The position numbers were made by a program, and so were the translations under genes. 64,000 nucleotides of DNA from Yinghuangia soli (lineage in GTDB: Bacteria; Actinomycetota; Actinomycetes; Streptomycetales; Streptomycetaceae). Below the pieces are notes generated by a model. That model saw nothing but the letters and a program-made list of their open reading frames with translations. It ran no database searches and was not told the DNA's origin. Shown here piece by piece: positions 49,631 through 52,472 of the stretch. Position 1 is the stretch's first letter. Every line of letters begins with the position of its first letter. The stretch lies in the NCBI RefSeq assembly GCF_021502675.1, contig NZ_JAKFHA010000001.1:680400-744399 (forward strand), read 5' to 3'.

Positions 49631-50116
49631 TCAGCGTGCCGGCACGATCACGCCGGTCAGCCGGCTGATGACCCGGGCCGCGGTGCGCAGGTCGTCGGCC
49701 GGCAGGTCGGCCAGGGCCGCTTCCCAGTGCTTGCGGAAGACGGTGTCGAGCTCGTCGAGGGCGCGCAGTCCGGACGGGGTGAGCCGGATGACCGTGCCGC
49801 CCCGCCCGCGGCCCGCGCGCACCGCCTCCACCAGGCCTTCCCGGCCGAGCACCTCGAGCAGGGCGCTCATGTGCGCGAGCGGCAGGCCGACCACGCCGGC
49901 CAGCGTGGCGGTGTCCAGGTCGAGCTCGTCGGCGAGGGTGACCAGCACGCGGTGCCGCTGCACCTGCGGCGAGTCGGAGCCCGCGCTGCGCGCGGCCCGG
50001 TCGGCGCGGACCGCGGCGAGGAACCCGTTGAAGGCGTAGCGCAGCGTCTCGACCGACGCCTCGCGGTGCTCGTCGCCCGCCCGGCACTCCGGGCGGTCGA
50101 GTACGTCTCCGGACAC
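49631..50116 (-). CDS. MarR-family regulator
   Basis: This winged-helix protein (161 aa) has DTATLAGVVGLPLAHMSALLEVLGREGLVEAVRAGRGRGGTVIRLTPSG, the recognition helix and wing of MarR proteins. The GTG at 50116 follows AAGGAG. It is convergent with the AidB-like gene and divergent from the sulfur operon, so it might regulate either. No operator could be assigned to it with confidence. Confidence 0.85.
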   Translation of the reverse strand: MSGDVLDRPECRAGDEHREASVETLRYAFNGFLAAVRADRAARSAGSDSPQVQRHRVLVTLADELDLDTATLAGVVGLPLAHMSALLEVLGREGLVEAVRAGRGRGGTVIRLTPSGLRALDELDTVFRKHWEAALADLPADDLRTAARVISRLTGVIVPAR

Positions 50117-50277
50117 GACGATCAGCTCCTTACCGGTCCCGCTCCCACGGCCGCCCCACGCGCGGCCGCGCTGGTCCCCCGGGGCCCGGCGCACCCTCTC
50201 GGGAACGTGTTCGGGCCTCCCGTACCGTAACCAAACGCACCACATCCGCAACTCGGGGCGTCCGTGATGCGCACGCT

Positions 50278-50315
50278 ATCTCACTTGTTGAGATTGCGTG
50301 TCCACATATTAAGAT
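50278..50315 (+). promoter_or_regulatory. Promoter with palindrome for the sulfur-assimilation operon
   Basis: TTGAGA (50288-50293) and TAAGAT (50310-50315), 16 bases apart, make a sigma-70-type promoter. The -35 lies inside the perfect inverted repeat ATCTCA-CTTGT-TGAGAT (50278-50294). A repressor or activator that responds to sulfur supply is likely to bind here. The predicted start is near 50322. Confidence 0.6.
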
Positions 50316-50374
50316 TTGCGTTCGTATGGCGGACGAAGATGGACGACGTGCCGCCGCCATGCCAACCTTTCCGC

Positions 50375-50458
50375 ATGTCTCGCGCCGGAATCGCCCTCGT
50401 TGGTCGACTGCATGTCGACCTCGGACGCATGTCCAGCGCCTTCTGTATGCCGGTATGA
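50375..50458 (+). CDS. Cysteine leader peptide upstream of sulfite reductase
   Basis: This 27-residue ORF contains the motif LVGRLHVDLGRMSSAFC, the hallmark of actinobacterial leader peptides found before cysteine and sulfur genes. One cysteine codon stands three codons before the stop. When cysteinyl-tRNA is scarce the ribosome would stall there and change the folding of the RNA ahead of the sulfite reductase start. The peptide itself needs no function. Confidence 0.85.
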   Translation: MSRAGIALVGRLHVDLGRMSSAFCMPV

Positions 50459-50479
50459 GACCCCCGCCCGCAACCATTC

Positions 50480-50586
50480 GCTGCCGGGCGCGCGGTCGTG
50501 CCGGCAGCCTGCGTCCAGTCGCCTGAATAGGCGCGGAGCGGGACCGCCGTGTGCGGCGCGCGTCCAGACACACCGTCAAAGGACGC
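50480..50586 (+). promoter_or_regulatory. Candidate translational attenuator before sulfite reductase
   Basis: GCTGCCGG (50480-50487) pairs with CCGGCAGC (50501-50508). GCGTCC at 50560-50565 can pair with GGACGC at 50581-50586, which contains the ribosome binding site of the reductase gene. A second copy of the same anti-binding-site sequence, GCGTCCAG, lies at 50511-50518 right after the first hairpin. The two copies could form mutually exclusive structures switched by stalling on the leader peptide. Confidence 0.5.
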
Positions 50587-50589
50587 CCC

Positions 50590-52275
50590 ATGGCCACCTC
50601 CTCCTCGGCCGCCGGACCCCGCAAGACCGCTCGCCATCGCGGCGAGGGGCAGTGGGCGCTCGGCCACCGCGAGCCGCTCAATGCCAATGAGCAGTTCAAG
50701 AAGGACGACGACGGCCTCAACGTCCGTGCGCGCATCGAGAACGTCTACGCGCACCGGGGCTTCGACTCCATCGACGGCAGCGACCTGCGCGGCCGGATGC
50801 GCTGGTGGGGCCTCTACACCCAGCGCAAGCCCGGGATCGACGGCGGCAAGACCGGTGTCCTGGAGCCGCACGAGCTCGACGACGAGTACTTCATGCTCCG
50901 CGTCCGCATCGACGGCGGCCGGCTGAACCTGGCCCAGCTGCGCGCGGTCGCCGAGGTCTCCGAGCGGTACGCCCGCGGCACCGCGGACGTCACCGACCGG
51001 CAGAACGTGCAGTACCACTGGATCCGCATCGAGGACGTCCCGGCGATCTGGCGCATCCTCGAAGGCGTCGGCCTGTCCACCACCGAGGCCTGCGGCGACA
51101 CCCCGCGCATCGTGCTCGGCTCGCCGACCGCCGGCATCGCCGAGGACGAGATCATCGACGGCACCTGGGCCATCGACGAGATCAACAAGCGCTACATCGG
51201 CAAGCCCGAGTACTCCAACCTGCCGCGCAAGTTCAAGTCGGCGATCTCCGGTTCGCCGCTGCTGGACGTGGCGCACGAGATCAACGACATCTCGTTCGTC
51301 GGCGTGAACCACCCCGAGCACGGCCCCGGCTTCGACGTGTGGGTCGGCGGCGGGCTCTCCACCAACCCCAAGCTCGCGGTCCGCCTCGGCACCTGGGTGC
51401 CGCTGGAGGAGGTGCCGGACGTCTGGGAAGGCGTCATCAGCATCTTCCGCGACTACGGCTACCGCCGGCTGCGCAACCGCGCCCGCCTGAAGTTCCTGGT
51501 CGCCGACTGGGGACCCGAGAAGTTCCGCCAGGTCCTGGAGGACGAGTACCTCCAGCGCAAGCTGATCGACGGCCCCGCGCCCGAGCAGCCCAGCGGCGTG
51601 TGGCGCGACCACGTCGGCGTGCACCGCCAGAAGGACGGCAAGTTCTACGTCGGCTTCGCGCCGCGCGTGGGCCGCGTCGACGGCGCCACGCTCGGCAAGA
51701 TCGCCGACCTCGCCGAGGCGCACGGCTCGGACCGGGTGCGCACCACCGTCGAGCAGAAGATGCTCATCCTCGACATCGAGGAAGACAAGGTCGCCTCGCT
51801 GACCGAGGGCCTGGAGGCGCTCGGCCTGCGGGTCACCCCGAGCCCGTTCCGGCGCGGCACGATGGCCTGCACCGGCATCGAGTTCTGCAAGCTGGCCATC
51901 GTCGAGACGAAGGGCCGCGGCCAGCGCCTGATCGAGGAAATGGAGCAGCGCCTCCCGGACTTCGACCAGCCGCTCACCATCAACATCAACGGCTGCCCGA
52001 ACGCCTGCGCCCGCATCCAGGTCGCCGACATCGGCCTCAAGGGCCAGCTGGTCCTGGACGACGAGGGCAATCAGGTCGAGGGCTACCAGGTGCACCTGGG
52101 CGGCAGCCTCGGCTTCGACCCCGGCTTCGGCCGCAAGGTCCGCGGCCTGAAGGTCACCGCCGACGGCCTGCCCGACTACGTCGAGCGCGTGGTCCGCAAC
52201 TTCGAGGCGCAGCGCACCGAGGGCGAGCGGTTCGCCCAGTGGGCGGCGCGCGCCACGGAGGCGGACCTGTCATGA
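50590..52275 (+). CDS. sir: Ferredoxin-type sulfite reductase
   Basis: This siroheme and [4Fe-4S] enzyme (561 aa) reduces sulfite to sulfide. Cluster cysteines are C427 and C433 (CTGIEFC) and C469 and C473 (CPNAC). The substrate-site arginines lie in VTDRQNVQYHWIR and PRKFKSAISG. The nitrite reductase family is very similar, but the cysteine leader upstream and cysH, cysD and cysN downstream favour sulfite. GGAC at 50581 is the binding site for the ATG at 50590. Confidence 0.93.
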   Translation: MATSSSAAGPRKTARHRGEGQWALGHREPLNANEQFKKDDDGLNVRARIENVYAHRGFDSIDGSDLRGRMRWWGLYTQRKPGIDGGKTGVLEPHELDDEYFMLRVRIDGGRLNLAQLRAVAEVSERYARGTADVTDRQNVQYHWIRIEDVPAIWRILEGVGLSTTEACGDTPRIVLGSPTAGIAEDEIIDGTWAIDEINKRYIGKPEYSNLPRKFKSAISGSPLLDVAHEINDISFVGVNHPEHGPGFDVWVGGGLSTNPKLAVRLGTWVPLEEVPDVWEGVISIFRDYGYRRLRNRARLKFLVADWGPEKFRQVLEDEYLQRKLIDGPAPEQPSGVWRDHVGVHRQKDGKFYVGFAPRVGRVDGATLGKIADLAEAHGSDRVRTTVEQKMLILDIEEDKVASLTEGLEALGLRVTPSPFRRGTMACTGIEFCKLAIVETKGRGQRLIEEMEQRLPDFDQPLTININGCPNACARIQVADIGLKGQLVLDDEGNQVEGYQVHLGGSLGFDPGFGRKVRGLKVTADGLPDYVERVVRNFEAQRTEGERFAQWAARATEADLS

Positions 52276-52472
52276 GCGAGCGAGCGGCGCCCTTTTACTG
52301 CCCGTACTGCGGGGACGAGGACCTGCGCCCCCACGAAGAGGGGCACGGGGCCTGGCTCTGCGGAGCGTGCCGCCGCGCGTTCACGCTGAAGTACCTGGGC
52401 CTGGTGTTCAACGCGAACACCACGCCCGAACCGGCAAGTTCCGCATCGACATCCGAGAAGGAGGGGCAGTGA
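52272..52472 (+). CDS. Small zinc-ribbon protein of the sulfur operon
   Basis: This 66-residue protein has four cysteines in two knuckles (C10, C13, C30, C33), a likely zinc or iron site, then a short helix and a Ser/Thr tail. Similar small proteins stand between sulfite reductase and cysH in many actinobacteria. Function unproven; help with electron transfer or reductase assembly is possible. It overlaps both neighbours by four bases (ATGA and GTGA). Confidence 0.8.
   Translation: MSERAAPFYCPYCGDEDLRPHEEGHGAWLCGACRRAFTLKYLGLVFNANTTPEPASSASTSEKEGQ

Follow-up and report, generated by a model that had tools for sequence, protein, structure and literature searches.

The mechanism of the mycobacterial polycysteine attenuators, which are among the closest described systems, is reportedly the one set out by Canestrari in 2020. 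In the accessible part of one report, mycobacterial systems of this kind are described as translation attenuation (PMC13236596). The available text on the upstream ORF motif of cysS in Rhodobacterales describes UGC as the dominant codon (PMC8632094). Selective charging of isoacceptors is given, in the accessible portion of PMC1183508, as the reason for the codon choice of attenuators. The re-annotation of Streptomyces lividans lists eight leader peptides, none of which is termed cysteine-dependent in the sections available (PMC8079986).

In this study, we analysed a stretch of 64,000 nucleotides of the Yinghuangia soli genome (the window), in which a leader ORF of this type precedes a nitrite/sulfite reductase (SiR) gene and its Shine-Dalgarno (SD) sequence. 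The features referred to below are as follows.

50340 to 50368, forward strand: promoter-like elements, TGGACG (50340-50345) and CAACCT (50363-50368) separated by 17 nt, ending six nt before the leader ATG
50375 to 50458, forward strand: leader ORF of 27 codons, from ATG 50375 to a TGA ending at 50458, encoding MSRAGIALVGRLHVDLGRMSSAFCMPV and matching NF042934
50444 to 50446, forward strand: putative sensor Cys codon TGT, codon 24 of 27, with the stop four codons on
50459 to 50485, forward strand: brief C-rich stretch immediately 3' of the leader stop, putative Rho entry site
50511 to 50516, forward strand: copy 1 (GCGTCC), predicted 5' arm of a hairpin of its own with 50535-50539 and not an anti-SD element
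50535 to 50539, forward strand: partner of copy 1 (GGAGC), from folding
50560 to 50565, forward strand: copy 2 (GCGTCC), predicted anti-SD arm of a local hairpin
50578 to 50586, forward strand: SD region of SiR, AAAGGACGC
50590 to 52275, forward strand: SiR, first gene of the operon, ATG at 50590 (NCBIfam, PF01077, PF03460)
Genes 3' of SiR, forward strand: cysH from 52466, cysD from 53246, cysN from 54170 and an SsuA-like gene from 55635 (NCBIfam; PF01507 for cysH)

The leader peptide scored 30.6 bits against the NF042934 profile in the NCBIfam search, above the cut-off of 27, and is thus a member of that family, while its score of 24.3 bits against NF042936 (Ms4527A leader), with a cut-off of 45, places it outside the latter. 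The element in the window is a cysteine-containing leader peptide of a known family, and both the leader and its family are established directly. It shares with the NF042934 entry, a "putative leader peptide" (cis_reg_atten), the profile score above the cut-off, the position of a short ORF before a sulfur operon and the HVDL.R...C core; no feature excluding membership was found, and the family entry itself is an annotation and not a tested function. Its 27 residues include one Cys (codon 24). The leader ORF lies 131 nt from SiR, which is followed by cysH-cysD-cysN, and SiR identity in two other Yinghuangia genomes is 95% and 89%. A comparison with Rfam families gave only sub-threshold matches at 49800-50800 (best chrB-a, 19.3 against a gathering score of 43.9) and no match at six related loci. 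At the SiR end, before cysH, a short forward-strand ORF at about 52272-52472, which was read as the tail of a longer mechanically called ORF, contains CPYC...CGAC and looks zinc-ribbon-like by eye.

Seven NF042934-family leaders, the SiR leader included, were found in the Yinghuangia soli genome. The other six precede genes for a sulfurtransferase, an oligopeptide-/nickel-type solute-binding protein, a ThiS/MoaD protein, an SsuA-like protein and two luciferase-type monooxygenases/oxidoreductases, one of which is alkanesulfonate monooxygenase-like; these names come mostly from matches below curated cut-offs, and the solute-binding protein has no demonstrated link to sulfur. The preliminary description of this DNA had placed the leader in a family known to precede sulfur genes, which agreed with our profile match, with the sulfur operon and with the mostly sulfur-type genes after the leaders of this genome; the sequences and coordinates that it gave for the leader, for both repeat copies and for GGACGC all proved correct. 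The genome would hold seven probable cysteine-controlled loci.

SiR was present in 297 of the 297 sampled genomes of the family Streptomycetaceae. From 110 SiR loci (L008-L117), six repeats and two with too short upstream DNA (L047, L104) were removed, and a 27-codon leader preceded SiR in all 102 that were left, 101 by pattern and one by eye (L037, whose leader escaped the strict pattern and which is excluded from the statistics on 101 loci). All 101 leaders were equal in length, carried TGT at the sensor place and ended in TGA, and the spacer between leader and SiR ranged from 114 to 240 nt in the Streptomycetaceae SiR loci. A single Cys codon was found in 89 of these leaders, and the other 12 had one extra, always TGC. 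One of the groups compared with Yinghuangia is taken to be Embleya; our search shows it as a separate genus, with Streptomyces sp. SID3343 as one member. A search of the phylum placed 18 of 19 genomes with a leader match inside the class Actinomycetes, and the sole match outside it (G615) scored 23.8 bits, below the cut-off, and was without the Cys. One locus (L127) harbors two family leaders within 1.9 kb on opposite strands, at about 1630 on the forward strand and as a reverse complement at about 384, both with a TGT sensor.

The sensor Cys lies nine residues past the D of the VDL motif (116 loci from 23 families), and the near-fixed TGT at this place was established directly from the letters. 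TGT was found at the sensor place in 102 of 102 Streptomycetaceae SiR leaders, in all seven leaders of the Yinghuangia soli genome and in 116 of 117 class-wide NF042934 leaders, the remaining one having TGC; the class-wide set consists of the best-scoring matches, is not random, and includes those seven leaders (L006 being the SiR leader of the window). Among 33 further loci, of which 20 were picked as lower-scoring and 13 came from the phylum search at any score, the Cys was present at the sensor place in 30 (27 TGT and 3 TGC, two of the latter sharing their peptide) and missing in L262, L288 and L289. With all sets joined, TGC stands at the sensor place in 4 of the 147 family leaders that have a Cys there. 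The other Cys codons of 116 class-wide leaders were 165 TGC and 46 TGT (Fisher P about 7e-49, relatedness ignored), and the longest open frames 3' of the leaders had 269 TGC and 32 TGT. The share of TGT among Cys codons was 1.2% in the SiR genes, and 109 predicted genes of the Yinghuangia soli genome used 266 TGC and 11 TGT (11/277). The codon cannot have been selected by the collecting profile, since the profile scores amino acids. One leader, L280, reverses the rule, with TGC at the sensor place and TGT at a Cys seven residues earlier.

One tRNA-Cys generally reads both Cys codons, and a tRNA-Cys with the anticodon GCA was found here. Selective charging needs two isoacceptors; with one tRNA-Cys for both codons, that theory would predict no UGU preference. 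The dominance of UGC in the cysS upstream ORF of Rhodobacterales likewise indicates that UGU is not a general need of cysteine attenuators. Slow wobble reading or a UGU-dependent arrest may be the reason for UGU. We tentatively suggest that the signal may lie in the identity of the codon and not in the amino acid alone: one UGU, read by wobble, has stayed at the same position of a conserved nascent peptide across the class Actinomycetes, in genomes that otherwise favor TGC. If so, the leader would sense cysteine through one codon, with slow reading of UGU and the nascent chain in place of the usual run of regulatory codons, and its UGU preference would be inexplicable by selective isoacceptor charging, should one tRNA-Cys read both Cys codons. 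What deserves testing is the near-fixed UGU sensor codon: if this codon does the sensing, a synonymous change from UGU to UGC should change the cysteine control, and the codon-choice theory of attenuators becomes directly testable where its usual explanation fails. We do not claim that the UGU codon of these leaders is unpublished; it is undescribed in the available portions of PMC8079986, PMC9094748, PMC4633059, PMC13236596, PMC1183508, PMC8632094 and PMC4046918.

Other codons of the SiR leaders were also nearly uniform (GTC in 101, TCC in 100, AGC in 100 and GCC in 99 of 101 loci), and none of the near-invariant columns of the SiR gene (18 Val, 10 Ser and 18 Ala) was as uniform as these; codon uniformity was ordinary at the leader His and Asp and, within its N-terminal half, at Leu, Val and Arg. 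That several leader codons are held more tightly than those of the same residues in SiR genes suggests some constraint beyond the peptide in Streptomycetaceae SiR leaders, and no structure accounts for it so far. A self-hairpin of the leader, which RNAalifold drew in all four groups, was rejected, native leaders being hardly stabler than synonymous sequences that preserve the peptide. Compared with synonymous sequences of SiR codon usage, the mean z was +0.19 (85 distinct leaders); with matched G+C it was +0.16 in the 7 Yinghuangia/Embleya leaders, -0.52 in 60 Streptomyces and -0.35 in 18 Kitasatospora leaders. Rare codons are kept in the 25-codon aligned core, namely TTG at one Leu (74/101) and GGA at one Gly (95/101), and AGT is used in all 72 SiR leaders that have Ser at one aligned place.

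Upstream of ATG 50375 no SD was seen and a -35/-10-like spacing was present. The lack of an SD before this ATG, together with promoter-like elements that end six bases 5' of it, makes a leaderless transcript likely, as far as the letters allow. TGGAC was found upstream of the leader in all 101 scanned loci, and a consensus promoter scan chose another site in the window, at 50288-50315.

The 8-mer GCGTCCAG stands at 50511-50518 and 50560-50567, and GGACGC at 50581-50586 overlaps the SD AAAGGA (50578-50583). This 8-mer occurs 19 times in the window on both strands (7.0 expected from shuffles), so that a pair of copies with a spacing of 49 nt is unremarkable. In the fold of the window with the leader included, copy 2 paired with GGACGC at P 0.99, which bears out the proposal that the second copy can pair with the hexamer holding the SiR ribosome binding site. 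The letters complementary to the SD in the copy 2 helix are present in 3 of 3 Yinghuangia and in 4 Embleya-group loci, and the probability of the hairpin in the latter ranged from 0.01 to 0.59 (three of four loci folded). A helix of at least 6 bp was found in 3 of 3 Yinghuangia loci (0.2 expected from shuffled own upstream DNA) and in 3 of 3 distinct Embleya-group loci (0.7 expected). By comparison, 7 of 103 predicted gene starts of the Yinghuangia soli genome have an SD-covering Watson-Crick helix of at least 6 bp within 60 nt upstream, and the SD exposure of SiR falls at the 30th percentile of these starts in an 80-nt fold and at the 36th in a 160-nt fold. As a family-wide feature the hairpin was rejected: outside Yinghuangia and Embleya only 1 of 93 distinct loci has such a helix (3.9 expected), which indicates a lineage-specific feature. 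The stem letters are identical in all seven Yinghuangia/Embleya loci; the covariation suggested earlier as a check gave no support, and because these letters never vary it neither supports nor refutes the hairpin. In our folding models, the SD hairpin of copy 2 with GGACGC is a static lineage feature and not a two-state switch.

Taken together, the Yinghuangia soli leader is most likely a cysteine-starvation stall leader, and, judged from its sequence, a response to cysteine is quite probable. For the full mechanism we favor, at about even chances, a cysteine-starvation attenuator on the short leader ORF with a Rho-type output and a static SD hairpin. Translation of the leader ORF would probably begin at the very 5' end of the transcript. 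Under a shortage of charged tRNA-Cys, the ribosome would pause at the only Cys codon, the rare UGU at 50444 with the stop four codons on, and hold the SiR-cysH-cysD-cysN-ssu operon on. With ample cysteine, the ribosome would reach UGA and leave, and the C-rich leader, now bare, would permit shut-off, for which Rho-dependent termination seems the most likely step. At the SiR start of Yinghuangia, the permanent local hairpin of copy 2 with GGACGC would lower basal translation.

The C-rich tract in relatives was measured directly. Over the 80 nt that follow the leader stop, the C-minus-G value of 101 SiR loci averaged 0.228, with 96% above 0.1, against 0.009 and 18% upstream of the leader; the corresponding values for 115 class-wide leaders were 0.147 and 73%, against 0.008 and 18%, and the background before 103 gene starts of the Yinghuangia soli genome was 0.030 and 23%. 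In the window it was 0.05, a value reached or exceeded by 33% of random windows, and the first 30 nt after the stop gave a mean of 0.29 in three Yinghuangia. No site resembling a terminator hairpin was found in 50200-50700. The C excess after the stop and the lack of a terminator fit loading of Rho on the bare leader after the ribosome leaves, and protection while it is paused. On the other hand, C excess is found inside the SiR genes too (83% at one place), so the signal is not Rho-specific, and the mycobacterial precedent of translation attenuation, as far as the accessible text describes it, counts against a Rho-type output (PMC13236596). Rho thus appears a plausible candidate for the output step at somewhat less than even chances, and unmasking of the SD a rather less probable one. 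In the spacer between leader and SiR, CAGGTCA recurs (e.g., L028, L023) in 34 of 41 short-spacer Streptomyces, 16 of 20 Kitasatospora and 9 of 32 long-spacer Streptomyces loci, with an expectation below 0.3 per group from base shuffles, and is absent from the Yinghuangia and Embleya spacers.

The alternative that survives best is translational attenuation, in which the SiR SD is paired with the leader end that holds the Cys codon, until a ribosome stalled on that codon breaks the pairing; we consider it somewhat unlikely. The precedent in mycobacteria, in the part of the report available, speaks for it (PMC13236596). Pairing of (U)GUCC with GGAC appears in the consensus folds of Kitasatospora and long-spacer Streptomyces, and in the Embleya group UGUUC...CCGG stands against CCGGAGGACG. 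For the modelled stall, a ribosome footprint was masked on the Cys codon and the SD exposure was computed from equilibrium folds, which are not co-transcriptional. Masking raised the mean exposure from 0.437 to 0.499 in Kitasatospora (4 of 20 loci up by more than 0.1, 1 down) and from 0.407 to 0.458 in long-spacer Streptomyces (8 of 32 up, 2 down), whereas short-spacer Streptomyces went from 0.347 to 0.339 (0 of 42 up, 4 down). None of the seven Yinghuangia/Embleya loci shifted by more than 0.1 (three Yinghuangia, mean 0.315 to 0.332; four Embleya, 0.288 to 0.287): the window stayed at 0.334, G002 went from 0.378 to 0.334, and the largest shift was that of Y. seranimata, from 0.235 to 0.327. 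The duplexes were equally mixed. Leaders paired better with their own SD regions than with those of Streptomyces in Embleya (-16.15 vs. -13.56 kcal/mol) and Kitasatospora (-16.34 vs. -14.86 kcal/mol), but swapping cost the Streptomyces leaders little (own -18.35, swapped -18.08 kcal/mol), Yinghuangia leaders did no better with their own SD regions (-12.0) than with those of Streptomyces (-12.8), and the strongest duplex of Kitasatospora leaders was with Yinghuangia SD regions (-18.77). A candidate covariation between leader and SD in Kitasatospora, from C-G to U-A at core codon 23 and seen by eye, was discarded, since Streptomyces with the same codon mostly form G-U. With these mixed swaps, leader:SD pairing was rejected as the main explanation and retained as a rival only.

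An arrest peptide is less probable still, and we regard it as unlikely. Here the nascent chain L..R.HVDL.R...C would itself stall the ribosome and respond, inside the exit tunnel, to free cysteine or to some other sulfur signal, the codon being secondary. In its favor, four positions, R(D-4), D, R(D+3) and C(D+9), are invariant in 116 of 116 class-wide leaders, the codons of the Arg vary (at R(D-4), e.g., CGC 38, CGG 37, CGT 17, AGG 13, CGA 11), and most SiR leaders have a single Cys codon; however, this conservation is partly built in, the class-wide set having been gathered with a profile of the same residues, and the nearly fixed D+9 codon would be needless for a pure peptide sensor.

It is improbable that the leader is incidental and that a repressor or activator acts at the conserved GTCC-N7..9-GGA(C/T) site before it. 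Base shuffles predict this site in 1.3 of the 94 Streptomyces/Kitasatospora loci; 91 carry it, and in 76 of these it sits at -56 relative to the leader ATG. However, the pattern is missing in the seven Yinghuangia/Embleya loci, and an operator leaves the conserved leader and its TGT codon unexplained. Such an operator-like site may act alongside the leader. The order is the operator-like pattern and then TGGAC, of which the window has a degenerate form only (50320-50345). A divergent ORF on the reverse strand (49631-50251) looks by eye like a MarR-type winged-helix regulator that could serve such a site; Pfam gave no match at E 0.001 for the part at 49631-50158.

The weakest alternative, the preliminary description's ribosome that stalls on the leader and selects one of two anti-SD copies, is highly improbable in our models and can be set aside, although its letters are present, both copies are retained in three Yinghuangia and they partly exchange on the SD in Y. 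seranimata (L009; 0.32 and 0.67), the only locus where they do. The main partner of copy 1 in the window is GGAGC (50535-50539; P about 0.86), whereas a leader-internal GGACGC reaches P 0.11 and the SD P 0.00; in G002 its partner is another GGACGC, 99-104 nt 5' of the SiR start (P 0.99), and copy 1 is absent from the four Embleya-group loci. Since the GGACGC at the SD is the common complement of the two copies, their exchange cannot free the SD, which is blocked in both states. Folding with and without the leader masked had been put forward as a check: masking a ribosome on the Cys codon left the SD exposure of the window unchanged, as given above, and the SD was not always free, being partly blocked in every modelled state. 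With the ribosome masked at the stop codon the exposure of the window was 0.429; this state stands for ample cysteine, so that the slight rise runs in the wrong direction for the proposed switch.

Compared with known systems, the favored reading of a cysteine-starvation attenuator shares features with several. Rho-dependent control of the tnaC type has in common with it a sensor codon near the leader stop and, in the relatives, C-rich DNA after the stop, and differs in that the C-rich tract is weak in the window. As in attenuators of the trp/his type, the leader ORF holds a codon for the end product, whereas in the window leader only one codon is regulatory and 50200-50700 shows no terminator-like hairpin. 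The uORFC-8-2 motif before cysS of Rhodobacterales is, in the text available, also an upstream ORF whose conserved Cys codons are presumed sensors of charged tRNA-Cys (PMC8632094). That motif is described there as having two tandem Cys codons, with UGC dominant, and an intrinsic terminator, whereas the window leader has one UGU, with no terminator found (PMC8632094). The Ms4527A leader (NF042936) and the polycysteine attenuators of mycobacteria share with the Yinghuangia leader a C-terminal Cys in a leader ORF before sulfur genes and a probable leaderless start. The stalled ribosome reportedly unmasks the SD in the mycobacterial attenuators, while the equilibrium fold of Yinghuangia predicts no unmasking (0.334 in both states). 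The related polycysteine leaders examined mostly have TGT at the aligned Cys as well; the mycobacterial attenuators carry a Cys tract, and the Yinghuangia leader has one Cys codon.
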